In this document: piece after piece, positions 4,261 to 20,083 of the stretch | Position numbering within the stretch: position 1 is the first letter of the stretch | Layout of the letters: each line of letters starts with the position of its first letter | IMG/VR virus record: IMGVR_UViG_3300033981_000746 | Span: 1 to 21,030 of that record | Direction: 5' to 3' (one strand) | DNA length: 21,030 nt | Source of the DNA: a virus | Position numbers and translations under genes: made by a program | Notes under the pieces: generated by a model | The model's input: only the letters and a program-made list of their open reading frames with translations | Databases searched by the model: none | Told to the model about the DNA's origin: nothing

Positions 4261-5301
4261 TTACTCCCGGATTTGAATTGGCATGATGAGGTATGTCTGC
4301 TCTGTCATGCTAGTCGGCGTCAACACCACTGGGGTTGTTGCGCTGTTGGCTGACAGTGTAACAGTCTCCGCCGATCGCATAGCCTTCAGGCCATCGAGCA
4401 GGTAGTGCACGTTGAACGCCCATGACCCAGTGGCGGAGCCCTCGAAGGTGATCAGCTCCTTGCCGTTGTTGGCATCGGCTTCAGCGGTGATGGTGAGCGC
4501 ACCACCCTTGGCCGTGAGTTTGACGGCATTGTTGTGAGCCTCAGCGATCAATGCGACGCGCTCTAGGCATCGGGTAAACCGGTGCCGGTCCATGGTCATG
4601 GCGTGCTCGAAGCTGGTGGGGATCAGCGCTGCCACGTTGGGATAGGTGCCATCGAGGATGCGGCTGTACATGACGATGCCATCACCGGCGTCGATGACCG
4701 CCTGCCCCTTGGCTGCAGCCACTGTCACCATCCGATCCTGCAGCAGCTTCATGGTCGTTGCTGGCAGCACCAGATCAATACCATCGGGCAATGCCACGGG
4801 GACGCGCATGAGCCGATGGCCGTCGGTGGACTCCATGAACCCAGCGGCGAGGTGAATGCCCTGCAGGATCTGCTTGCTGGCGTCAGTGCTGACGGCTGCC
4901 ATGCAGGCACGCACGCCAGCGGTAAGGTCCAGCTCAGCGCCAGGAGCCTCTACAGCGGGCAATGCCGGGTAGTCAGCCGCATCCTGCACAGCAAGGCCGT
5001 AGGAGCCGCTGGAGGCCGTCACAGCGCCGTCTGACAGCGTCACAGGCTCGCCGTCGTCCATGCGGCTCACAAGGCCAGCCAGCAGCCGATACGGCAACGC
5101 CACGGTGCCGGGTGTGTCTACGGCTGCGGGAACGGTGACCGTGATGCCTAGGTCCAAGTTGAAGCCGGTCACGGTCATGGTGCCGCCGCTGGCAGCTACC
5201 AAGCAGCAGGACAGGATCGGATGGCTGTTGCTGGTGCTGATGGCCGGGGCAATGGTGCGCAGCGCATGGCTGAGATCAGCCTGTGTGGTGATGAGTTTCA
5301 T
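4261..5301 (-). CDS. dnaN: Bacterial-type DNA polymerase III beta sliding clamp
   Basis: 346 aa, slightly shorter than cellular beta clamps (about 366 or more). It forms the ring that tethers polymerase to DNA. It begins MKLITTQADLSHALRTIAPA and continues SNSHPILSCCL, the usual beta-clamp opening (x-L-x-x-A-L-x-x-V-x-x-A, then P-I-L). The middle contains STDGHRLMRVPVALP, typical of the second clamp domain. It ends TYLIMPIQIRE, close to the canonical Y-x-I-M-P-M/I C-terminus that forms the partner-binding pocket. Three repeated clamp folds fit the length. It overlaps the 66-aa gene upstream by ATGA and precedes terS. A phage-encoded clamp suggests recruitment of host Pol III, or clamp-dependent factors, to phage DNA. 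Confidence 0.93.
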   Translation of the reverse strand: MKLITTQADLSHALRTIAPAISTSNSHPILSCCLVAASGGTMTVTGFNLDLGITVTVPAAVDTPGTVALPYRLLAGLVSRMDDGEPVTLSDGAVTASSGSYGLAVQDAADYPALPAVEAPGAELDLTAGVRACMAAVSTDASKQILQGIHLAAGFMESTDGHRLMRVPVALPDGIDLVLPATTMKLLQDRMVTVAAAKGQAVIDAGDGIVMYSRILDGTYPNVAALIPTSFEHAMTMDRHRFTRCLERVALIAEAHNNAVKLTAKGGALTITAEADANNGKELITFEGSATGSWAFNVHYLLDGLKAMRSAETVTLSANSATTPVVLTPTSMTEQTYLIMPIQIRE

Positions 5302-5498
5302 GATGCAGCTTCGGTGAGGATTGAAACCAGCCGGTTGTAGTCGGCTGCAAATGACGCGACCAGTTCAGCAGGGATGGGCTGCCGATCGTCTTGGGCATTG
5401 TCGCGGATCGCAGCAGCATACGCCAGCGCGTGCTCCATGGCGTCATGGAGCCGGTTGATCACGGGTTGCTGTTTGGCTGCGATGTTGATGAGTTCCAT
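5298..5498 (-). CDS. 66-aa hypothetical protein upstream of the clamp
   Basis: 66 aa starting MELINIAAKQQPVINRLHD. It is almost entirely helical with heptad-like spacing of Leu, Ile and Ala, and ends with VSILTEAAS. The stop overlaps the dnaN start by ATGA, and the 5' end overlaps the RHH gene by 40 bases, so it belongs to one translational unit with both. No family is recognised. It may be a small clamp- or RHH-associated factor, but that is only from position. Confidence 0.65.
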   Translation of the reverse strand: MELINIAAKQQPVINRLHDAMEHALAYAAAIRDNAQDDRQPIPAELVASFAADYNRLVSILTEAAS

Positions 5499-5731
5499 GT
5501 GAGGGTGAATGCAACAAGCTGCTCAACCAATCGACGTGGGATGTCACCACGGACACTGGCGAGCGCATCTGACACTAAGCGGTGATAACCAGCAACGGTA
5601 AGGCCACCTTTGCAATCCGACACAAGCGCCCGACTGCGGATCAACTCCGACCGGCTGACACCTGCCGCCGCTGCTGCTTGGTCGAGCGCCACCAGATCCG
5701 CAGGCTCAAACCGAACTTTGACTTCCTTCAT
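5459..5731 (-). CDS. Ribbon-helix-helix (CopG/Arc-like) DNA-binding protein
   Basis: 90 aa from ATG 5731 (MKEVKVRFEPADLVALDQA). Residues 2-8 form the ribbon strand, and about 11-42 the two helices with the turn AGVSRSELIRSRAL, the standard CopG pattern. The remainder (about 50-80) is an extra helical tail. An in-frame ATG at 5743 would add four residues. RHH proteins dimerise and often repress their own promoter. Directly upstream lies the block of AGGTGGGGTAC repeats (5752-6009), which makes these repeats candidate operators or origin sites for this protein. The specific target is inferred. Confidence 0.75.
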   Translation of the reverse strand: MKEVKVRFEPADLVALDQAAAAAGVSRSELIRSRALVSDCKGGLTVAGYHRLVSDALASVRGDIPRRLVEQLVAFTLTWNSSTSQPNSNP

Positions 5732-6009: not shown

Positions 6010-8047
6010 AACGGCGGTACACATAGGCCCTGGTTGACCCTTTGCCGCTGCGGTACCGCTTGAACCCAAGCCGCTTGAGCACGTCCGCAACCTGCATCTG
6101 GTCCGCCTTGGTCTGCCGTTCTACGGGCTTCTTGATGGCCTCAGTGAGCAACCTTTCAGTGGTCAAATCAATCTCGCCGTGTCTACGCAACCAGTCTTCA
6201 ATTTCTGCCTGCCAAGGGTTATCAACGACGTAGGATTCGTTCTCCTCGGCAAGCTGTCGTTCATGCTCGGCAGGCAACCGACTGGTCTCACCTGCACGGT
6301 ACGCAGCAACAGCGGCAGACCATATTGCATCGCGTTCTAGCAATAGCGTTGCGGTGTCAATTTGATCCGACTGCGTCTTAGTTGTAGGGATCACCCAGAA
6401 GCGACGGTTACCAGTTTCGTCCACCAAAAAGCCAGTGGTGCGGTTAGTGGTGCCGACGATAATGCCGCGCCTTGGGAATGCCTCAGTAGCCTTGCCATAT
6501 GGCACGCGGAACATATCAACCGCCTGCGATAGAAAGGCCTTGACCTGCCCTGCGTGCTTACGATTAGTCACATGGTCCAGCTCTGCCCACTCCATGATCC
6601 ATGACCGATGCAGCACCATGAGATCGTCTTTGGTGCTGATGTCGCCAAGGGCATCGCTGAAGAAGTCATGGCCGAGGCACGCCCAGAACGATGACTTGTA
6701 GGCGCCCTGATCACCCATGATCACGCAGGCCGAGTCGTGCTTGCAGCCAGGGTTGTAGGCACGGGCAACAGCGCCGATCAGCGTGCGCTTGAGCATCTCG
6801 TCGTAGATGGTGCCAGGCGTGTCACCGGGTCGCAGGTATCCGGTTGACAGGGCCTCGATGTAGGCAGGTGCCACAGTGGCTGCGACGCGATCAAGGTATT
6901 CGACGACCGGGTCATAGGGCGACTCATTGGCCACCTGCACGATGCAGTCGAGGGCTACTTCTTTGGATACCTTGTACCCCATCTCGGCCAGCGTGAGATA
7001 AAAGCGTTCCGCGCCTTCGATGGGTGCGCCGTCTACCTCGATCCGTTGGGTGAACGTGTTGTACCTGTAGCTGCTATCACCATGGCGCAATAGGTTGAGC
7101 AGCTCTGCAGCATTCATCGGCTGAAGCTGCGGGTTCACCGCTGACGGCGGTTGCTTGCCTGCAGGTCGCTCGCGACGGACTGGCTCTTGCTGCTGCCGGC
7201 CACGCCAACCGTCCTGCTTGGCCAGTTGGCCAAGGGTGCCAAGGGTGATACCACCGCCGGACTTGAACCCGCGCCACTTGTGCTCGCAGTCACCTGGCTT
7301 GAACTTGGAAGACTGCGACGACCAGTTGATCCAATCCGCCAGCAGGGCATCATCGACGCTATGGAGCGCCATGCCCACCTCGAGCCACTGGTCATAGTCA
7401 TCAGCGCGGCTGGGCTGCAACACCTCGAGAAACGACCGAGCTCGCGCCGTGTCATCACTGCCGCCACTGACCAGCGGCAACGGCGCCTGCACTGGCTGCC
7501 GCAGCATTCGGGCTATCAGGTCTGCCGGTGCTTCGGCAATGTCTACGTCTGTTGGCGACCGCCCTGGCACCCAGCTATAGCCACTGGTCAACGGGTGCGC
7601 GCCGGCAACAATGGACTGGCAGCCATCCCAGCGCAACTCGACCTGCTCAGGCTTGCCTTCGGTATCGGTTACGCCGGTCTTGTATTTGCGGGTGCGGATG
7701 TCTGCCCAATAGTGCTCAGGCACTTGGTAAATGATCTGAAACCGCCCGTCGCGACCGGAGGTTACGGTCCATGACGGCGGCAACGAGCTGACCGGGATGC
7801 CCCAGTCGTCAAACAACCGCGATGCGGATTTGCCGTCGTGGTCCACGAACAGCAGGCCACCGCTGGGCGTGCCGCAGCAAACGCCGATCGCCTTGGCACG
7901 ACCGGACTGCAGTTCCTTGCCGAGTTGGATGCGGGTGATGAAGTTCTTCTGCCAGTTGTCCATATACGGCCGTTTCTGGCCATCAACTGCCACATAGGAC
8001 CAGTGGCGTGGCAGCGCTGCTAGCTGCCCGAGTAGGTCACTGGTCAT
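6008..8047 (-). CDS. Phage primase-polymerase / VirE-type SF3-like helicase
   Basis: 679 aa. Residues about 14-185 form a prim-pol domain of the bifunctional primase/polymerase type, with the metal-binding FVDHDG motif at 67-72, the GRFQIIYQVP segment and a conserved His in VAGAHP. Residues about 202-282 fit a PriCT-2 domain (DYDQWLEVGMALHS, WRGFKSGGG). Residues about 380-600 match a VirE-family phage helicase, with Walker A-like GDQGAYKSS (445-453), a Walker B-like IMEWAEL and sensor motifs GTTNR (532-536) and GNRRFW (546-551). It should synthesise primers and unwind DNA at the phage origin. Its ATG overlaps the stop of the upstream RHH gene. The repeat block directly downstream is a plausible replication origin. 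Confidence 0.88.
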   Translation of the reverse strand: MTSDLLGQLAALPRHWSYVAVDGQKRPYMDNWQKNFITRIQLGKELQSGRAKAIGVCCGTPSGGLLFVDHDGKSASRLFDDWGIPVSSLPPSWTVTSGRDGRFQIIYQVPEHYWADIRTRKYKTGVTDTEGKPEQVELRWDGCQSIVAGAHPLTSGYSWVPGRSPTDVDIAEAPADLIARMLRQPVQAPLPLVSGGSDDTARARSFLEVLQPSRADDYDQWLEVGMALHSVDDALLADWINWSSQSSKFKPGDCEHKWRGFKSGGGITLGTLGQLAKQDGWRGRQQQEPVRRERPAGKQPPSAVNPQLQPMNAAELLNLLRHGDSSYRYNTFTQRIEVDGAPIEGAERFYLTLAEMGYKVSKEVALDCIVQVANESPYDPVVEYLDRVAATVAPAYIEALSTGYLRPGDTPGTIYDEMLKRTLIGAVARAYNPGCKHDSACVIMGDQGAYKSSFWACLGHDFFSDALGDISTKDDLMVLHRSWIMEWAELDHVTNRKHAGQVKAFLSQAVDMFRVPYGKATEAFPRRGIIVGTTNRTTGFLVDETGNRRFWVIPTTKTQSDQIDTATLLLERDAIWSAAVAAYRAGETSRLPAEHERQLAEENESYVVDNPWQAEIEDWLRRHGEIDLTTERLLTEAIKKPVERQTKADQMQVADVLKRLGFKRYRSGKGSTRAYVYRR

Positions 8048-8217
8048 AGACCCCTCGGGCCGGTAGCTGGCAACAGGCCTTGCTTGTCAAGGCGCATGGC
8101 CTGCTCGACCACAAGCCTGAGCACAGCGCTACGAGACAGGCCGGCAACGCGGCGGGCGTCAAGCCATGCCATCTGCTCTGGCGTGAGCTGGACGGCAAGC
8201 GGGTGTGATAATGGCAC
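8044..8217 (-). CDS. Short ribbon-helix-helix protein
   Basis: 57 aa from a GTG at 8217 that has AGGA 3 bases upstream; a longer frame from 8352 exists, but its extra N-terminus runs through the divergent promoter region and looks unlike protein. Residues 7-12 (LAVQLT) form the ribbon and about 13-43 two helices with the turn VAGLSRSAVLRLV, as in CopG/Arc proteins. The tail is short. The stop overlaps the primase-helicase start by ATGA. As the first gene of the leftward unit next to a divergent intergenic region, it may control one or both directions of transcription; this is inference. Confidence 0.65.
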   Translation of the reverse strand: MPLSHPLAVQLTPEQMAWLDARRVAGLSRSAVLRLVVEQAMRLDKQGLLPATGPRGL

Positions 8218-8286
8218 GAGTCCTAGCGGATACTTGCGCAGTCTACCGGGTTGCGCTAGGGTTGCAGGGCCACTCCGGCACCACAG
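8218..8286. promoter_or_regulatory. Divergent intergenic control region
   Basis: All genes to the left read leftward and all genes to the right read rightward, so both promoters must lie in or near these 69 bases. On the plus strand a weak match TTGCGC (8234-8239), 17 bases, TAGGGT (8257-8262) precedes the 57-aa gene at 8287. No convincing minus-strand promoter is visible. The direct repeat GTTGC at 8250-8254 and 8261-8265 flanks the rightward -10 candidate. The region is inferred from gene layout; the promoter match itself is weak. Confidence 0.4.
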
Positions 8287-8460
8287 ATGAATCCTATCTA
8301 TCGAATCACCTACCAACGCCCTTGGGGCCCTTGCGTTGTCAACACAACCCAATTTGCCAATGAAAACGATTTAAGAGCAAGATTCAATCAATCATACAAA
8401 AATTGTGAGATTCTAAAAATAGAAGACGTAACCTTAGAGTTTTTGCCCAAGGGAATATGA
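8287..8460 (+). CDS. 57-aa leader gene of the IbrA-like cassette
   Basis: ATG 8287 to TGA 8460 encodes 57 aa, starting MNPIYRITYQRPWGPCVV and ending LEFLPKGI. It overlaps the next gene by ATGA at 8457-8460, so it is almost certainly translated and coupled to it. The predicted layout is strand, strand, helix (ENDLRARFNQSY), strand, strand: a small alpha/beta fold. The base composition changes to AT-rich within this gene and stays so through the cassette. No Shine-Dalgarno is visible. I recognise no family; it could be a small partner or a translational lead-in for the PP-loop protein. Confidence 0.68.
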   Translation: MNPIYRITYQRPWGPCVVNTTQFANENDLRARFNQSYKNCEILKIEDVTLEFLPKGI

Positions 8461-9773
8461 AAACCTATTTAGACATAAACGTCTACCAAGCCGCTATTGA
8501 GCGCTTGGATTTTATTTTTGAGCATTTCAGCCGCGTTTACGTCTCTTTTTCTGGCGGCAAGGACAGCGGCGTTCTCTTGAATCTTGTTTGCGATTATGTC
8601 AGAAATCGAAAACTGCCAATAAAGATTGGCGTCCAAATAATGGACAATGAAGCCAACTATACTCATAGCGAGGAGTTTATGCACCGCATTCTCCAAGCTA
8701 ATCGCGACATCCTAGATATTTATTGGTGCTGCCTGCCAATTACTTTGCCATGCACTGTTTCGTCATATGAAATCGACTGGCAGTGCTGGGGCGAACACGA
8801 TCGACACCGCTGGATTCGCCCAATGTCAAAACACGATTACATTGTAAACCTTGAAAATCACCCCTTTGGCGATTTGTTCGCTGAAAACATGGACTACGCT
8901 ACTTTTTGGGACATGTTTGCAGAGTGGTATAGCCAGGGGCAGCCATGCGCCAACTTGATCGGCATTCGTACTGTTGAATCTCTTAATCGTTTTCGAGCTA
9001 TTCTTAACCAGGACAAAGAGACCATGCTAGGTCGGATGTGGACAAAGAAAAATACAGATCACACTTACAACTGTTATCCCATTTACGATTGGCGGACCGA
9101 AGACATTTGGACCGCCAACGCAAAGTTTGGATGGGATTACAACAAACTTTACGACGTGTTCTATATGGCCGGCATTCCTATTAAAAAAATGCGTGTTGCT
9201 TCGCCTTTTATGTCAGAGTCAAAATCAAGCCTTGCAATGTATCGGGTAATTGACCCGCAAGTATGGGCTAGGTTATGCGCTAGGGTTGGCGGCGCTAATT
9301 TTATGGCTACTTATGGGAAACAACTTGATTATAAATCTTTTAAGCTCCCAGCTGGTCATACCTGGAAATCATTTGTAAAGTTCTTGCTTGCTACGTTACC
9401 GGATCAGTCAAGCGCAAATTTTAAGCAGCGCTTCATTCAGTCAATCCGTTACTGGGGACGAGTGGGGCGCGGACTACCCGAGTTTATTATTGATGCCCTT
9501 GGTCGTATTGGCATTCGTTTCTACATCAATGGCACCACACGGCACGGCGGCAACAATCTACGCCGTGTTGTAATCAAGGTGCCACCTGATCAACTTGATG
9601 ATTTGCCATGCCATAACAGCATGGTCACTTCATGGAAACGCTTTGCTATCACGGTTTTAAAAAACGACCACACGTGCAAATACCTGGGACTGGCGCCAAC
9701 CCAAGAACAACAGCGCCGCCAAAGGTCAATCCAACGCAAGTACAGCCAAGTCCTTAATCGCTCCATCAAATGA
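8457..9773 (+). CDS. IbrA-like PP-loop / PAPS reductase-family protein (DUF3440 type)
   Basis: 438 aa. The PP-loop SGGKDSG at 32-38 (within VYVSFSGGKDSG) is the ATP pyrophosphatase signature shared by PAPS reductases, DndC and IbrA. Further features match IbrA-type proteins: WQCWGEHDRHRWIRPM, YNCYPIYDWRTEDIW, and a C-terminal tail with W-K-R-F-A-I and NDHTCKYLG (403-411). Such proteins may activate a substrate by adenylation or handle sulfate-derived groups; the actual reaction of IbrA is not established. In E. coli ibrA and ibrB together raise expression of eib immunoglobulin-binding genes. The start overlaps the 57-aa gene, and the stop overlaps the cupin-ParB gene, both by ATGA. GC content is clearly lower than in neighbouring replication genes, suggesting separate ancestry. 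Confidence 0.88.
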   Translation: MKTYLDINVYQAAIERLDFIFEHFSRVYVSFSGGKDSGVLLNLVCDYVRNRKLPIKIGVQIMDNEANYTHSEEFMHRILQANRDILDIYWCCLPITLPCTVSSYEIDWQCWGEHDRHRWIRPMSKHDYIVNLENHPFGDLFAENMDYATFWDMFAEWYSQGQPCANLIGIRTVESLNRFRAILNQDKETMLGRMWTKKNTDHTYNCYPIYDWRTEDIWTANAKFGWDYNKLYDVFYMAGIPIKKMRVASPFMSESKSSLAMYRVIDPQVWARLCARVGGANFMATYGKQLDYKSFKLPAGHTWKSFVKFLLATLPDQSSANFKQRFIQSIRYWGRVGRGLPEFIIDALGRIGIRFYINGTTRHGGNNLRRVVIKVPPDQLDDLPCHNSMVTSWKRFAITVLKNDHTCKYLGLAPTQEQQRRQRSIQRKYSQVLNRSIK

Positions 9774-10711
9774 AAATCCTAAACGTTTCTCAGCTCTCTT
9801 CTGATCGCATCGTTAACTGTCCCAAAGGTGGTTTTACCAGCCATCGCTTGTTAACAGAAGACGATGGCATGGGATACAGCATGACCAAGACCATTGTGCA
9901 TCCCGGCAAACCACACCGTTGGCATTATCAACACCACCTCGAAACTTGCTACTGCGTCAGCGGCAAAGGTCTGCTCATTAACGAAGCAACACAAGAGATT
10001 CACGCTATCGGGCCTGATGTAACTTATGTGCTTGACAAGCATGATCCTCACATTTTTGAAGCTCTAGAACCGACCACGCTTATTTGCGTTTTTAACCCGC
10101 CACTTAAAGGCGATGAGCTACATGACGAGAACGACTCTTACCCTTGGCGATCCCCGGTTTACTCCGTACGCAGTATTCCTATCGAGAAAGTTACCGCCAA
10201 TGATTACAACCCCAATTCTGTGGCGCCGCCTGAAATGGCACTACTCGAAACATCCATCTGGGAAGATGGTTACACGCAACCTGTCGTTGTCGTGCATGAT
10301 GCCGAGCGTGACCTTTATGTGGTCGTTGACGGTTTTCACCGTTATTTAACTCTAAGGAACAGTCAGCGCATCCGCGAACGCGAAGGCGGCCGGTTGCCTG
10401 TAGTAGTACTGCGCAAAGAATTGCACGACAGGATGGCATCAACCATCCGGCACAATCGCGCTCGTGGTTCGCACAACATTGAACTGATGAGCGTAATTGT
10501 TGCTGAGCTGATCGAGATGGGCAAAGGCGACGCATGGATTTGCAAGCACATTGGCATGAGCCCTGATGAACTGTTGCGCCTTAAGCAAGTTACAGGTTTG
10601 GCCTCGCTGTTTTTGGGTAAAGATTTCAGCAAGGCGTGGGACGTGGAACAAATCGACAACTTGACGGAGGATCTAGAACATGAAGCTCAAGAGAATCTGG
10701 TTACCAATTGA
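9770..10711 (+). CDS. Ectoine-synthase-like cupin fused to IbrB/ParB-like domain
   Basis: 313 aa with two clear parts. Residues 1-126 resemble a full-length EctC cupin: SHRLLTEDDGMGYSM (24-38), HHLETCYCVSGKG (55-67), TYVLDKHDPHIF (85-96), ICVFNPPLKGDELHDE (105-120). Positions E58, Y86 and H94 line up with the Glu/Tyr/His iron ligands described for EctC. Residues about 130-290 are IbrB/ParB-like: IPIEKVTANDYNPN, VVDGFHRYLTL, RHNRARGSHN, then a helix-turn-helix (AWICKHIGMSPDELLRLKQ). EctC normally closes N-acetyl-diaminobutyrate into ectoine, but no other ectoine genes are present, so the cupin probably has another small-molecule or sensing role. It is coupled to the IbrA-like gene, the usual IbrA-IbrB pairing. 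The fusion is in one uninterrupted frame. Confidence 0.88.
   Translation: MKILNVSQLSSDRIVNCPKGGFTSHRLLTEDDGMGYSMTKTIVHPGKPHRWHYQHHLETCYCVSGKGLLINEATQEIHAIGPDVTYVLDKHDPHIFEALEPTTLICVFNPPLKGDELHDENDSYPWRSPVYSVRSIPIEKVTANDYNPNSVAPPEMALLETSIWEDGYTQPVVVVHDAERDLYVVVDGFHRYLTLRNSQRIREREGGRLPVVVLRKELHDRMASTIRHNRARGSHNIELMSVIVAELIEMGKGDAWICKHIGMSPDELLRLKQVTGLASLFLGKDFSKAWDVEQIDNLTEDLEHEAQENLVTN
10666..10670 (+). promoter_or_regulatory. Strong ribosome binding site for the 141-aa gene
   Basis: GGAGG lies 9 bases before ATG 10680, inside the end of the cupin-ParB frame. Most starts in this cluster have no Shine-Dalgarno and rely on ATGA overlap. This site therefore gives direct support for the 141-aa ORF and its start. 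Confidence 0.7.
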
Positions 10712-11105
10712 CACCTGGGAGGAAATTCGCTTTAACATGTGGGGCGACGTGTCAAATCGACGCATTGCCCTGCAACGTGCAATAATTTTCACAGGCAACC
10801 ATCGCCTTTATGGCCGATACATGCAACGGGTTATTTTTGAATGGCCCAACAGCTGCAAAAACGCTTTAACTGATTACAATCTGAATCGCAAAGCATGGAT
10901 AGGCCATGCTGCTTGCGCTTTGGCTTTGCGATGCCCTGAAGACATTACTAGACAAGCATGGGGACTTTTAACTGATGAGCAACGGACATTGGCGAACAAA
11001 CAAGCGGATCGAGCCATTTGCGCTTGGGAAATGCGCTACCGCCAGAGTCTCGGAATACGTGCAAACGTGGAAAGCCCGTTGTTATTCGCACGAGATTCCC
11101 GATGA
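10680..11105 (+). CDS. 141-aa hypothetical protein of the IbrA-like cassette
   Basis: Starts at ATG 10680 behind GGAGG, overlapping the cupin-ParB gene by 32 bases. The N-terminal half is basic and aromatic (DTWEEIRFNMWG, HRLYGRYMQRVIFEW). A second part, about 69-115, reads NRKAWIGHAACALAL and TRQAWGLLTDEQRTLANKQA, a helical segment similar in style to small phage proteins I have seen beside such loci, though I cannot name a domain. The last 43 codons overlap the 110-aa gene in another frame for 131 bases. No catalytic motif is visible. It is probably a partner of the PP-loop/ParB pair by operon position. Confidence 0.68.
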   Translation: MKLKRIWLPIDTWEEIRFNMWGDVSNRRIALQRAIIFTGNHRLYGRYMQRVIFEWPNSCKNALTDYNLNRKAWIGHAACALALRCPEDITRQAWGLLTDEQRTLANKQADRAICAWEMRYRQSLGIRANVESPLLFARDSR

Positions 11106-11307
11106 AGTGCCGGCCAAGGTTGCAGCCTCAGGCCGTGCTCCATCGTGGCGAGCCGTTGCTGTGGCTTTGCTGCAAAATGACCTGCACCTTTATCAACTGG
11201 GTTATTCGCGTCCTGCATACGAGCGACAACGACGTGCCTTGACAATGGCGCAAATTGCTATTCATGGAACGCCAGCCGAAGGTACGCAACTGGAACTGCC
11301 ACTATGA
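10975..11307 (+). CDS. 110-aa protein resembling the C-terminal tail of IbrA, ending in QLELPL
   Basis: The central part (YVQTWKARCYSHEIPDEVP at 28-46, then GRAPSWRAVAVALLQNDLHL at 53-72 and YQLGY) follows the pattern seen at the C-terminus of IbrA/DUF3440 proteins (R-Y/I-PDE ... P-S-W-R/K ... ND ... LG). The IbrA-like protein of this cassette has the matching W-K-R-F-A ... KNDHTCKYLG. This looks like a stand-alone version of that module. The last six residues, QLELPL (105-110), fit the QLxLxL hexapeptide used by bacterial proteins to bind the beta clamp. The annotated ATG at 10975 lacks a Shine-Dalgarno and the first 43 codons overlap the previous gene; no better in-frame start preserves the module. 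Its stop overlaps the helicase start by ATGA. Confidence 0.75.
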   Translation: MSNGHWRTNKRIEPFALGKCATARVSEYVQTWKARCYSHEIPDEVPAKVAASGRAPSWRAVAVALLQNDLHLYQLGYSRPAYERQRRALTMAQIAIHGTPAEGTQLELPL

Positions 11308-12836
11308 ACCTCCGCCCCTACCAACAACAGCTCATCACTGACATCCGACTGCAGTACCAGCTAGGGCACCACAGGGTCCTGGCAGTGCTGCCAACCGGTG
11401 GCGGCAAGACGGTGTGCTTCAGCTATATCGCCCAGTCAGCCGCCCGCAAAGGCAACCGGGTCTGCATCTTGGTGCATCGGGCTGAGCTGCTGGACCAGGC
11501 CAGCCGCAGCCTCACGGCTATGGGCGTGCCGCATGGCCGCATCGCGGCCGGACGCAGCATGGACCTAAGCCATGCGGTGCAGATTGCCAGCGTCCAGACA
11601 TTGGCCCGCAGGCTGCACAAGCTGCCGGCTGGGTTCTTCCAGTTGCTGGTGGTGGATGAGGCGCACCACACCAATGCTGGGCAATGGGCAACGGTGCTGC
11701 AGCATTTCCACCAAGCGCATGTCCTAGGCGTGACAGCGACGCCATGCCGCGGTGATGGCCGCGGCCTTGGTGACCACTATCAGGCCATGGTGCTCGGCCC
11801 CAGCGCTGCATGGTTGACCGATAACGGCTACCTCGCCAGCGCTCGTGTCCTGGCACCACCTGGGTTCGACAGCACCGGACTGCGCAAGCGCATGGGTGAC
11901 TTCGACACCAAGGACGCCGAGCAGCGCGTTGGCACCATCATGGGTGACTGCTGCAGCCACTATCGCAAGCACCTGGCAGGGCAGACCGCAATCGCCTTCT
12001 GCTGCAGCGTGGCTCATGCCGAGGCAGTGGCGCAGCTCTTCATAGCGCAAGGCATCGCAGCCGCCAGCATTGACGGCACGATGAGCAATGATTGCAGGCG
12101 AGATCTGTTGCAGGCACTCGGAACTGGTCGGATCAAGGTGCTCACATCCTGCAGCCTGATCGGCGAGGGCGTGGACGTGCCAAGCGTCGGCGGCTGCATT
12201 CTGCTCCGGCCAACGCAGTCAGTCGGCCTGCACTTGCAGATGATCGGCCGCTGCCTGAGACCGTCACCGGGCAAGCCTGCTGCTGTGGTGCTGGACCATG
12301 TCGGTAACACGCTCAGGCTGGGCCATCACCTAGAGGACCGCGATTGGAGCCTCGACGGCATCAAGAAGCGCGACGCCGATCGTGCGCCATCGGTCAAGGT
12401 GTGCCCGGTGTGCTTTGCCACCAGCATGAGCGCCACACAGGTTTGCCCTGACTGCGGGCATGTGTTCGCCCCGCAAGAGACCAGGGAGCTAAAGGTGGTC
12501 GAGGGTGAGCTGCAGGAGCTGAACACAAACAGCATCAAAGTTGGCAGTTATGTACGGTTTAAAGACCCCAAGTTAATGATGGAAAGTCCTGATACATTTA
12601 TTGTTCTTGCTTTAAATGAGCAATCAGATAGGGTTAGATTAAAACTGTACCCAGATGGGTGTAGAATTGACACCCTTTTGGATCGCATTGAAATTGATCC
12701 TAGAGGTCCAAGGCGCGAGCAGGGCAATGCCCAAAGCCTCGAGGACCTCCGCCAACTAGCACAGCAACGCGGCTACAAACGCGGCTGGGCAGAACGGGTC
12801 TATCAGGCTAGGTTGGCCAAACGGCATGGGTTGTGA
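11304..12836 (+). CDS. DEAD/DEAH-type SF2 helicase with zinc finger
   Basis: 510 aa. Motif I is LPTGGGKT (29-36), motif II VVDEAH (about 116-121), motif III GVTATP (142-147) and motif VI MIGRCLRPSPG, giving a complete RecA-like pair of domains of the UvrB/RecQ-like phage helicase type. A CPVC...CPDCG zinc finger follows at about 366-386. The C-terminal part contains an AT-rich stretch at about 12535-12700 (codons 411-465) whose composition resembles the preceding cassette more than the rest of this gene. It could aid replication, recombination or transcription-replication conflict resolution. It overlaps the previous and next genes by 4 bases each (ATGA, GTGA). Confidence 0.9.
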   Translation: MNLRPYQQQLITDIRLQYQLGHHRVLAVLPTGGGKTVCFSYIAQSAARKGNRVCILVHRAELLDQASRSLTAMGVPHGRIAAGRSMDLSHAVQIASVQTLARRLHKLPAGFFQLLVVDEAHHTNAGQWATVLQHFHQAHVLGVTATPCRGDGRGLGDHYQAMVLGPSAAWLTDNGYLASARVLAPPGFDSTGLRKRMGDFDTKDAEQRVGTIMGDCCSHYRKHLAGQTAIAFCCSVAHAEAVAQLFIAQGIAAASIDGTMSNDCRRDLLQALGTGRIKVLTSCSLIGEGVDVPSVGGCILLRPTQSVGLHLQMIGRCLRPSPGKPAAVVLDHVGNTLRLGHHLEDRDWSLDGIKKRDADRAPSVKVCPVCFATSMSATQVCPDCGHVFAPQETRELKVVEGELQELNTNSIKVGSYVRFKDPKLMMESPDTFIVLALNEQSDRVRLKLYPDGCRIDTLLDRIEIDPRGPRREQGNAQSLEDLRQLAQQRGYKRGWAERVYQARLAKRHGL

Positions 12837-13441
12837 GAGTCCTTGTCGCCTGCGAGTACAGCGCCCGCGTTCGCGATGCGTTTCGGCGCCATGGGCACGA
12901 CGCGTGGAGCTGTGACCTGCTCAATTGCGAGGGCGATCAGCAATGGCACTTGCAAAAGCCGGTTGAGGAAGTGCTTGACAATGGCTGGGATCTGATGATC
13001 GCCCATCCACCGTGCACTCATCTAGCGGTGTCCGGCAGCAGACACTTTCATCGCAAGCAACGTGAGCAGGCCGAGGCGCTCGATTTCGTGCGGCTGCTGA
13101 TGGATGCGCCAATCGACCGGTGGTGCATCGAGAACCCTGTCAGCATTATCAGCAGCGCCATTGCACCACCATCTCAGATCATTCAGCCATGGCAGTTTGG
13201 GCATGGCGAGACAAAGGCCACATGCCTATGGCTCAAGAACCTGCCAAAGTTAAAGCCAACGCAGGTGGTTACCGGTCGCGAGACACGCGTGCATCTGATG
13301 CCACCCGGTCCCGACCGCTGGAAAGAACGCAGCCGCACCTATCAGGGCATAGCCGATGCCATGGCTGAGCAGTGGGGAGTCGCTACCCTGCCGCCAGTTG
13401 CCGAGCAGCTTTGTCTGAGCAGCGTATTCAGCAAGAAATAA
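12833..13441 (+). CDS. Short cytosine-C5 DNA methyltransferase-like protein
   Basis: 202 aa from GTG 12833, overlapping the helicase stop (GTGA). It begins with a motif I-like segment (RVLVACEYSARVRDAFRRHG), followed by a motif IV with the catalytic Cys (AHPPCTHLAVSG, C61) and motif VI (IENPVS, 99-104). These are the hallmarks of C5 methyltransferases, but the protein is much shorter than a Dcm enzyme and lacks an obvious target-recognition domain or motif VIII. Similar short forms are common in phages and may protect DNA from host restriction or act on modified substrates. No restriction enzyme lies nearby. Specificity cannot be read from the sequence. Confidence 0.78.
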   Translation: MRVLVACEYSARVRDAFRRHGHDAWSCDLLNCEGDQQWHLQKPVEEVLDNGWDLMIAHPPCTHLAVSGSRHFHRKQREQAEALDFVRLLMDAPIDRWCIENPVSIISSAIAPPSQIIQPWQFGHGETKATCLWLKNLPKLKPTQVVTGRETRVHLMPPGPDRWKERSRTYQGIADAMAEQWGVATLPPVAEQLCLSSVFSKK

Positions 13442-13770
13442 GACTTGCCATCAGCCACGGTGATACCAAAGTTTTCCGCAATAACACCGGCACCCTTAAG
13501 GACGCCAACGGCCGCCCGGTGCAGTTCGGTCTATGCAAAGGCAGCGCTGACCTGATTGGCTGGCGGACGGTCACGGTGACGCCTGAGATGGTCGGCACCC
13601 AAATGGCTGTGTTCCTATCCATTGAGGTGAAGACCCCCACAGGTAGGCTCAGGCCCGAGCAGCAGCAGTGGCTCGATGTGGTGCAGGCAGCCGGCGGCAT
13701 TGCTGGCGTGGCGCGCAGCGTCGAGGATGCCCAACGGTTGACCATGGATGACCAGGGTGGTATTGTGTGA
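13411..13770 (+). CDS. VRR-NUC nuclease
   Basis: 119 aa if it starts at TTG 13411, which gives the typical opening SEQRIQQEIRLAI; a GTG at 13372 in the same frame would add 13 residues unlike the family. The nuclease core of the VRR-NUC (PD-(D/E)XK) fold is present: FRNNTGTLKD, KGSADLIGW with the catalytic Asp, then LSIEVKTPTGRLRPEQQQW with the E-x-K pair. VRR-NUC proteins act on branched or flap DNA in phage replication and repair. It overlaps the methyltransferase end by 31 bases. The function fits the neighbouring helicase and recombination genes. Confidence 0.85.
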   Translation: MSEQRIQQEIRLAISHGDTKVFRNNTGTLKDANGRPVQFGLCKGSADLIGWRTVTVTPEMVGTQMAVFLSIEVKTPTGRLRPEQQQWLDVVQAAGGIAGVARSVEDAQRLTMDDQGGIV

Positions 13771-19186: not shown

Positions 19187-20083
19187 ATGTCTGACAGCAT
19201 CAAGGACTATCTCAACAGTATCGCCAAGTATCCACTGTTGACACCGCAGCAAGAGATACAACTCGGGAGGCGCGTGCAGCGGCTGCGTGAACTGCAATCA
19301 CTGAATCGCCCGCTGACCAACGCTGAACAGCGTGAGAAGCGCAGCGGTGAACGCGCCCGCCAGCGGTTCATCCAGTGCAACCTGCAACTGGTCGTGCATG
19401 TCGCCCGCAGGTACGACAAGCGCAATAACAAGACCATGGAACTGCTCGACCTGATCCAGGAGGGCAACATCGGATTGGCGCGTGCTGTTGAGCTGTTTGA
19501 CCCAAGCCGCGGCTATAAGTTCTCGACCTATGCCTACTGGTGGATCCGCCAAGGCATCACGCGTGCACTGATCAGCAGCGATGCCATTATCCGACTACCG
19601 ATCGGTGTGCACGAGACGATGTATAAGATCAACCGCACGATCCAGCATCTCAGCCACCAGCTCGGTTACCAACCGAGCATCACCAGAGTGGCAGAAGAGA
19701 TCGACATGGATCCTGGCGAGCTATCCAATTTGCTCCGGCAAACCTACACCGTTACCAGTATCGACCAACAGATCAACAACTCAGAAGGCCACAGCATTGT
19801 TGACACCATTGCCGACCCCAATGTAGTTGACAATGACATCAGCCAAGATGTGCAAATCATGCTGCGTTACGTTGACCAGTACCTAGACGATAGAACCAAG
19901 GCAGTCATTGAAGCGCGGTCGTGCTATCCAGCCGTCACATGGACGCAACTTGAACGCGAGTATGGCATTTCGAAGACTGCCCTGTACGACATCTATAAGC
20001 GCGGCGTCGGTCGCATCCGTATGCTGATGAGCAACCCCCTAGCGGACACGCCCCTTGGAACCAACGATCAAGCGGCACGGTGA
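19187..20083 (+). CDS. Phage-encoded sigma factor, cyanobacterial group-2 style, with divergent region 4
   Basis: 298 aa. It begins like cyanobacterial sigma factors (DSIKDYLNSIAKYPLLTPQQ at 3-22, then EIQLGRRVQ). Region 2 is intact (FIQCNLQLVVHVARRYDKRN, DLIQEGNIGLARAVELFDPS, YKFSTYAYWWIRQGITRAL; 61-127), so core binding and -10 recognition look normal. Region 3 begins IRLPIGVHETMYKINR (135-150). Region 4 (about 222-282) is degenerate: where sigma-70 has R-E-R-x-R-Q in the recognition helix, this protein has KTALYD (263-268) within GISKTALYDIYKRG, so the residues that contact the -35 element are replaced. This suggests altered promoter recognition. It starts about 180 bases after dcd. Confidence 0.9.
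   Translation: MSDSIKDYLNSIAKYPLLTPQQEIQLGRRVQRLRELQSLNRPLTNAEQREKRSGERARQRFIQCNLQLVVHVARRYDKRNNKTMELLDLIQEGNIGLARAVELFDPSRGYKFSTYAYWWIRQGITRALISSDAIIRLPIGVHETMYKINRTIQHLSHQLGYQPSITRVAEEIDMDPGELSNLLRQTYTVTSIDQQINNSEGHSIVDTIADPNVVDNDISQDVQIMLRYVDQYLDDRTKAVIEARSCYPAVTWTQLEREYGISKTALYDIYKRGVGRIRMLMSNPLADTPLGTNDQAAR

Follow-up and report, generated by a model that had tools for sequence, protein, structure and literature searches.

The stretch analyzed here, called the window throughout, is the 21,030-base IMG/VR virus record IMGVR_UViG_3300033981_000746. At positions 9770–10711 of its plus strand lies a single open frame of 313 codons, whose 313-aa product joins an ectoine synthase (EctC)-like cupin to an IbrB/ParB-like domain. 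The gene forms part of a compact cassette with the order ibrA–ectC-like+ibrB–o141–o110, and the cupin is very probably a component of that cassette rather than an osmoprotectant enzyme. The elements of the locus are the following:

8457–9773, plus strand: IbrA-like protein, 438 aa, of the PP-loop ATP pyrophosphatase type (PAPS_reduct) with DUF3440 (Pfam DUF3440 4.3e-53, PAPS_reduct 9.6e-9; phrog_2302 7e-109)
9770–10711, plus strand: EctC-like cupin/IbrB fusion protein (Pfam, PHROGs; structure model with a mean predicted local distance difference test score (pLDDT) of 77 and a predicted template modeling score (pTM) of 0.49)
9770–10147, plus strand: EctC-like iron-cupin domain, residues 1–126 (PF06339; model compared with 5bxx)
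10160–10708, plus strand: IbrB/ParB-like domain, predicted helical (helix-turn-helix-like) part, residues 131–313 (phrog_2159; model compared with Noc)
10680–11105, plus strand: o141, all-alpha 141-aa protein without known family, its start overlapping the end of the fusion gene (model pLDDT 92.4)
10975–11307, plus strand: o110, free-standing relative of the IbrA C-terminal DUF3440 region (Pfam, PHROGs, BLAST)

Both halves of the fusion protein are recognizable by profile. Residues 11–126 match Pfam Ectoine_synth (PF06339; E 2.8e-37, 128.2 bits, cut-off 27), the protein passes the NCBIfam ectoine synthase model PRK13290 (136.2 bits, cut-off 128), and residues 75–306 match the phage ParB-like family phrog_2159 (E 7e-77). 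The similarity of residues 133–198 to ParB_N (E 8e-5) amounts to 23 bits, below the Pfam cut-off of 26.3, and the N-terminal domain that marks a ParABS-type ParB CTPase is thus not called at that threshold. The IbrB motifs DG[FYH]HR and RHNRARG are each present in 369 of 370 IbrB proteins. In the predicted structure the cupin part is confident (block means 79 to 98 over residues 1–120) and is comparable with the ectoine synthase of S. alaskensis (5bxx; Z 19.8, root-mean-square deviation (rmsd) 1.0, 112 residues, 42% identity). The ParB domain is fair, with residues 131–232 resembling Noc (7ol9; Z 12.4, rmsd 2.4, 96 residues), and its placement relative to the cupin is poorly defined, as the overall scores listed above indicate.

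A preliminary description, made from the letters of the window alone, had proposed an EctC-like cupin and an IbrB/ParB-like domain in one frame, and PF06339, phrog_2159 and the single open reading frame (ORF) bear this out; the iron ligands it named, E58, Y86 and H94, correspond to E57, Y84 and H92 of P. lautus EctC. A frameshift or chimeric assembly was considered and ruled out, as the fusion occurs in 80 of 80 kept relatives and in phage Gaia and no sign of a join was seen. Nor are the two parts always encoded separately elsewhere: separate genes were found in 50 of the 131 EctC-bearing loci with ibrA. The same 50 loci rule out that fusion is needed for function, and covalent coupling of cupin and IbrB is therefore not required. 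The fusion is genuine, but as an architecture it is already annotated; the preliminary description, made without searches, had known of no such fusion, whereas GenBank record KJ567043 (phage Gaia) names an “ectoine synthase/ParB multidomain protein”.

That description had also passed over the upstream gene (8457–9773) and the two small overlapping genes downstream. The upstream gene encodes a PAPS_reduct plus DUF3440 protein directly beside the IbrB/ParB-like protein, the arrangement of an IbrA/IbrB pair, and its stop codon overlaps the start of the fusion gene (ATGA). Close viral relatives were gathered from IMG/VR, 80 being kept out of 227 candidates; the cassette counts cover these 80 and leave aside the window copy (L001), the loci from the genome scan and the scaffold MT835761 (L084). 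The fusion and o141 are present in all 80, ibrA in 79 and a short o110 in 76. The contig of the relative without ibrA (L007) starts too late to contain it, and among the four without a short o110, two end earlier (L019, L069), one is cut within o110 (L016), and one (L077) holds o110 inside a 420-aa ORF. Replacement of o110 by a full IbrA in the last of these was rejected: the ORF (L077, 4074–5336) resembles IbrA over a C-terminal stretch only, and its remainder has no assigned family.

All cassette parts are also contained in phages Gaia and XCL1123. In distant loci the parts are shuffled and the fusion state varies, with orders such as o141–o110–ibrA–ectP–ibrB, ectP–ibrB–o141–o110–ibrA and ibrA–ectP–o141–o110–ibrB, and the parts mostly stay together; neither o141 nor o110 was seen in 7 of the 131 EctC-like loci that have ibrA, for which contig ends are perhaps part of the cause. 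At the limits applied, Pfam, PHROGs, NCBIfam and PADLOC gave nothing for the o141 protein; its best fold match in the PDB reaches only Z 3.7 (Foldseek E 3.6), and its single BFVD match under 0.001 is an unnamed 116-aa protein, 59% identical. The start codon of o110 is uncertain, its first part overlapping o141; the protein falls below the cut-off for Pfam DUF3440 (0.066), matches phrog_15645 (2.4e-4), and by BLAST resembles the C-termini of the IbrA proteins of L085 (1.4e-9), L086 (1.3e-8) and the window (1.4e-4). Phages Amjad_SA and Mwe-JY13 have the order ibrB–o141–ibrA without a cupin, and because the C-terminus of their IbrA is closer to o110 than that of the window IbrA, o110 may descend from a second IbrA copy. 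In a 4.3-kb viral contig (L064; 539–1858 and 3924–4258) a second ibrA starts after the cassette, as if by tandem duplication of the cassette or of ibrA, and in L145 a sliding-clamp-like gene (4773–5512, read by eye) follows the cassette.

To lessen query bias, an alignment of five bacterial EctC proteins was used to scan IMG/VR viral contigs; hits had to carry either of two short peptide patterns, coverage is incomplete, and some of the contigs were already in the set. It returned 33 viral loci (best identity 47%), all of which carry ibrA (or its C-terminal end at the contig edge), ibrB, or both; ibrB is present in 32, and the remaining locus (L621) is cut soon after the cupin. Within a phage collection, EctC matched 5 of 50,697 records. 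Four of them, from three phages (Nebkiss, Gaia twice, XCL1123), place EctC next to PAPS (3′-phosphoadenosine-5′-phosphosulfate) reductase and ParB-like genes; the fifth, MT835761, is an unannotated fecal scaffold labeled bacteriophage, in which the ORF adjoining EctC is aminotransferase-like and was read as ectB, so that this is probably bacterial DNA with an apparent ectB–ectC pair. EctB was found in none of 517 viral records, a set that includes the window and in which some contigs are represented by overlapping copies, whereas the flanks of 34 of the 45 bacterial control loci contain it. The preliminary statement that the window holds no other ectoine genes agrees with the absence of an EctB match there, ectA having been given no separate search; orphan EctC genes likewise lack an ectB neighbor. 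In the genome scan, 80 of 137 relatives were kept and an EctC-like part was present in three, all from metagenome-assembled genomes (L151–L153). EctC was also found in 120 plasmid records; among the 20 matches listed, all are annotated as ectoine synthase except one, which is unannotated.

Next, the active sites of 123 distinct viral-type cupins were compared with 43 bacterial EctC rows at positions taken from the P. lautus structures (PMC6344544). Two samples by phylum, of 119 and 200 genomes, supplied the bacterial proteins, one row having first been met in another search; 43 of 45 bacterial loci yielded an EctC row, and all 45 served as the EctB control. The equivalents of S23, R25, T40, Y52, E57 and Y84 are invariant in both sets (123 of 123 viral-type copies), that of H92 is kept in 122 of 123 (Met in one copy) and that of F106 in 119 (Trp in four); the non-catalytic C104 is replaced by Ser in 30 of the 123 and in 4 of the 43. 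Two other positions set the groups apart. Trp-21 is described as completely conserved in 437 EctC proteins of ect clusters and conserved in 145 orphan EctC, in some of them shifted by two residues (PMC6344544), whereas the window cupin has Phe in its place. An automatic anchor found Phe at one of the two known positions in 117 of the 123 viral-type copies, and the copies it read have Trp at neither; of the six remaining, L126 and L152 also show Phe by eye and L121, L137, L145 and L292 show other residues, while L279 has a Trp at a third, neighboring position. In bacteria the anchor located Trp-21 at a known position in 40 of 43 rows and picked the wrong S-x-R in the other three, where the Trp is visible in the sequence. 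Cys-60 is present in 123 of 123 viral-type cupins and in 5 of 43 bacterial rows, 38 of which have Val.

After removal of viral-type rows more than 90% similar (123 to 74), the viral-type cupins formed one clade with 100/100 support against the 43 bacterial rows. The ratio of nonsynonymous to synonymous substitution rates (dN/dS) is 0.018–0.049 in four pairs, with dS of 1.5–2.8, near saturation, which points to strong purifying selection on the cupin. Judged by these alignments, the viral-type cupin has diverged rather than decayed, because the active site is kept, positions 21 and 60 depart from the bacterial pattern and the proteins form one clade; the dN/dS values agree. The history of the fusion was followed on a tree of the same 74 cupins, 38 of them fused and 36 encoded separately, with six bacterial rows as the root. 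Separate genes occupy the deepest branches, though support there is modest; five changes of state are needed to explain the fused copies, and well supported branches force at least three of these. The fusion therefore appears to be secondary, apparently gained or lost on more than one occasion.

The variability of the position beside ibrA and ibrB was assessed on 371 distinct IbrB loci, 356 of them with ibrA, obtained from 563 by merging loci that share the same 340 bases of ibrB. This sample was drawn with our own IbrB and EctC queries and is biased and phylogenetically dependent; accessory families were searched within 3.5 kb by profiles built from the slot proteins themselves, so other accessory kinds were missed. 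The 356 loci divide into those with an EctC-like cupin (131; 81 fused, 50 separate), a GNAT protein (49), a PD-(D/E)XK protein (11), a methyltransferase (2), a methyltransferase together with PD-(D/E)XK (3) and none of the searched accessories (160); two EctC-like loci also hold a PD-(D/E)XK gene. EctC-like and GNAT genes never co-occur. Where gene order is printed for GNAT loci (46), the gene lies between ibrA and ibrB in 29, before ibrA in 16 and after ibrB in one; the 16 comprise L164, L170, L175, L179, L186, L187 and similar genome loci. Pfam GNAT matches range from 2.7e-7 to 5.7e-7 for L265, L282 and L284 and are weak or absent in others; three scanned slot proteins of the Clostridia type (L217, L222, L229) have no Pfam GNAT match and were grouped with GNAT by profile cross-matches alone. 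Other slot proteins match methyltransferase phrog_9361 (1e-20) and exonuclease phrog_298 (7.6e-13). The possibility that the slot GNAT is EctA was tried and rejected: none of eight scanned proteins hit the NCBIfam EctA model, their best models being RimI, PaiA and arsenic-resistance acetyltransferases, far below cut-off, with no hit at all for three. The o141 gene is found in 123 of 131 EctC-like loci, in 1 of 49 GNAT loci, in 13 of 16 methyltransferase or PD-(D/E)XK loci and in 31 of the 160 loci with none.

The partner protein also speaks about chemistry. Among 289 full-length IbrA proteins from the gathered loci, the PP-loop motif SGGKDS is present in 260 and ECGxH, the motif of true PAPS reductases, in none. 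Sulfate reduction by IbrA is thus unlikely on motif grounds, and viral “cysH” auxiliary-gene calls resting on IbrA are doubtful. A PADLOC scan of six proteins found a stretch shared by IbrA with DndC and BrxP (the DndC match, 1.4e-6, being short) and no match for the fusion, o141 or o110. In DNA phosphorothioation the PP-loop protein DndC is encoded with DndB, a member of the ParB superfamily (PMC10853773), and ParB-fold fusions to DNA methyltransferases are described as frequent in phages (PMC12704722); IbrB, ectoine, cupin, PAPS and YbdM go unmentioned in the latter’s main text. The PP-loop plus ParB pair recalls DndC with DndB. Considered alongside these fusions and the swapping of families that transfer acyl groups, transfer methyl groups or form rings, it points to a modification machine whose final step can be exchanged. 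The GNAT-fold DNA modifier Mom of phage Mu is a further precedent.

In such a machine, the ATP-dependent activation of a group would fall to IbrA (PP-loop chemistry of the DndC kind). IbrB, with a bound nucleoside triphosphate (NTP), would present the target, and the final chemistry would come from the slot enzyme (EctC-like, GNAT or methyltransferase). In EctC, iron polarizes an amide carbonyl, and Thr and Tyr/Glu surround the attacking amine (PMC6344544). By analogy the cupin would be an Fe(II) cyclo-dehydratase in which Fe(II) activates an amide carbonyl, an amine attacks and water is lost; its substrate would be something that the IbrA/IbrB machine makes or works with, not free N-gamma-acetyl-diaminobutyrate, and o141 and o110 would be helpers of the EctC-type variant. 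The target would most likely be phage DNA or a nucleotide, giving protection from host defenses, although DNA or a nucleotide as the target is a guess, more likely wrong than right. The whole picture, that the cupin is catalytically active, serves the IbrA/IbrB machine as an exchangeable tailoring enzyme and uses a substrate different from the ectoine precursor, is in our judgment of sequence and synteny about evenly balanced between right and wrong. A bolder version is speculative and more probably wrong than right by a wide measure: IbrA/IbrB could form the center of a machine, widespread in phages, that hypermodifies DNA or nucleotides and takes a plug-in finishing enzyme; in this branch an ectoine synthase would have been recruited for that step as an iron-dependent cyclase closing a ring, e.g., a cyclic amidine on a modified base, with GNAT or methyltransferase in sister branches.

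Several observations weigh against a tailoring role. The slot is mostly empty: in 176 of the 225 IbrAB loci without a cupin the gap between ibrA and ibrB is below 200 bases, only 49 have an insert of 200–1500 bases, some of these inserts are o141, a broken ibrA or sequence without identification, and the 160 of 356 loci without any searched accessory enzyme belong to the same picture, so the core may work without such an enzyme or with one encoded elsewhere. The co-occurrence tests on the 356 loci (Fisher; EctC × GNAT p 2.5e-11, EctC × o141 p 2.8e-46) ignore shared ancestry and draw on the query-dependent sample, for which reason we weigh the slot pattern above the p-values. The resemblance of IbrA/IbrB to DndC/DndB and ParB is one of shared superfamily, with function assigned by analogy, and IbrAB of E. 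coli ECOR-9 reportedly activates prophage eib genes, as the title of Sandt et al. 2002 has it. Residue N38, tried as a sign of a new substrate, was dropped, since it varies in bacterial EctC as well (His in 33 of 43) and does not discriminate. Finally, the W21A variant of P. lautus EctC retains 9.7% activity (PMC6344544), and Phe at this position therefore does not exclude ectoine synthesis.

The last point bears on the reading of the gene as an auxiliary metabolic gene, a viral ectoine synthase making ectoine from host precursors against the osmotic stress of the infected cell. The Pfam and NCBIfam cut-offs are passed, and the consulted text of PMC13079714 interprets a viral “ectoine synthase” in this way, as that of PMC13288924 does for viral ectoine-related genes of a kind not specified there. 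All 33 viral matches of the bacterial EctC query nevertheless adjoin ibrA or ibrB, EctB is missing from the 517 viral records, Phe replaces Trp-21, the cupin has a ParB-like partner and its clade stands apart from the bacterial EctC; osmoprotection is disfavored, and we rate it very improbable. The genes of these virome papers may themselves be cassette members, a reading drawn from the 33 loci and not from a comparison of their sequences.

A closer competitor is a sensor-regulator: a small-molecule ligand of the cupin (ectoine, glutamine or a nucleotide-linked metabolite) would cause it to switch IbrB, which would act as an NTP-dependent DNA-binding activator of phage genes. Cupins are common ligand-binding domains, the model matches Noc (Z 12.4), and phage records annotate IbrAB as a co-activator of prophage gene expression; PMC12704722 moreover treats the ParB fold as an NTP-driven switch that frequently occurs joined to further domains. 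A mere binder, however, need not keep three iron ligands and the Thr and Tyr around the substrate, the slot is otherwise filled by GNAT, methyltransferase or nuclease families, the covalent link to IbrB is dispensable and IbrA is of the ATP pyrophosphatase type, and we consider this account unlikely. The preliminary description had left the choice between a sensor and an enzyme on a new substrate. Its doubt about ectoine was probably well placed, and the kept iron ligands and most catalytic residues, along with unrelated enzyme families in the slot of some sister loci, lean toward the enzyme: judged from these residues and neighborhoods, the cupin is probably catalytic rather than sensory. Counter-defense without DNA modification is another option, in which the cassette makes or destroys a nucleotide-like signal and the cupin and GNAT variants modify a host defense metabolite. 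Accessory genes do swap between loci as in conflict systems, and ParB-superfamily proteins have been discussed as possible nucleotide-degrading effectors (PMC10853773), but no link to a known defense signal was found and PADLOC gave only short partial matches, all to IbrA; we hold this option to be quite improbable.

These findings have consequences beyond this locus. Viral ectoine synthase calls may be this cassette, since all 33 viral matches of the bacterial query were. Genes called in this way probably contribute nothing to the salt survival of hosts, although at least one virome paper (PMC13079714) takes such calls as evidence that viruses support it. IbrA/IbrB are common in phages, and the literature search found no biochemistry of the pair; that some loci add an enzyme in or beside it, with the two commonest kinds, EctC-like and GNAT, never together, is a clue to its role and makes the question of IbrAB function testable with isolated phages. 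With its iron site and most of its catalytic center preserved on a new scaffold, the cupin may also lead to a new reaction. Under the bolder version given above it would, to our knowledge, be the first ectoine-synthase-kind cupin to act on nucleic acid. A literature search, with thin coverage of subscription journals and no bioRxiv preprints, found no paper on the fusion or the cassette; what seems to be new here is the cassette itself, the exchange of enzymes in its slot and the bearing on how viral ectoine synthases are annotated.

Elsewhere, the window encodes terminase, sliding-clamp, RecT, single-stranded DNA-binding protein, dCTP deaminase and sigma genes as well as a DUF4055 protein, which we take to be portal-like. 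The phage-borne DNA polymerase sliding clamp (4261–5301, minus strand) has three DnaN domains (Pfam), and the sigma-70 type factor (19187–20083, plus strand), with regions 1.2, 2 and 3 (Pfam), looks cyanobacterial in sequence, in keeping with a possible cyanobacterial host. A DNA methyltransferase-family protein (phrog_757; 12833–13441, plus strand) is overlapped by a VRR-NUC nuclease (13372–13770, plus strand); the methyltransferase is present in 4 of the 80 relatives, some of which end before that position.

Compared with known systems, the locus resembles Dnd in pairing the gene of a PP-loop ATP pyrophosphatase with that of a ParB-superfamily protein (PMC10853773), and differs in that IbrA has short partial DndC matches only and no full-length one. 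E. coli K-12 YbdN/YbdM is described as a putative PAPS reductase/DUF3440 protein paired with a ParB-like protein (PMC9068703), its likeness to IbrA/IbrB resting on this table description and not on aligned sequences. The EctC structures of S. alaskensis (5bxx) and P. lautus (5onm, 5onn, 5ono) share fold and iron-site residues with the cupin, which unlike them has Phe for Trp-21, an invariant Cys at residue 60 and no ectB neighbor found. Among the matches listed, streptococcal and Lactobacillus phages carry IbrA and a short IbrB with 59–64% identity to the IbrB part, but no EctC-like part, and neither o141 nor a free-standing o110 was found in L088–L090. In the last of these, Fusobacterium phage phiFN37, at 7463–8492, a second ParB-like gene adjoins a queuine tRNA-ribosyltransferase-like gene about 3 kb from ibrAB, and this pair resembles DpdA/DpdB-type DNA modification pairs. 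Pseudoalteromonas phage XCL1123 (MN313256; QGJ84329/QGJ84330) has the same cassette order and differs in that a stop separates the EctC-like part from the IbrB part, giving two adjacent genes, both bearing the name “ectoine synthase/ParB multidomain protein”. In Mycobacterium phage Gaia (KJ567043, gp103–gp107; host M. smegmatis), ibrA is followed with a four-base overlap by an EctC–IbrB fusion (gp104, AID58923.1) and by o141 and o110 homologs; unlike the window, Gaia has an extra gene, gp105, between the fusion and o141, and its fusion protein is 68.6% identical to that of the window over 94% of the fusion.

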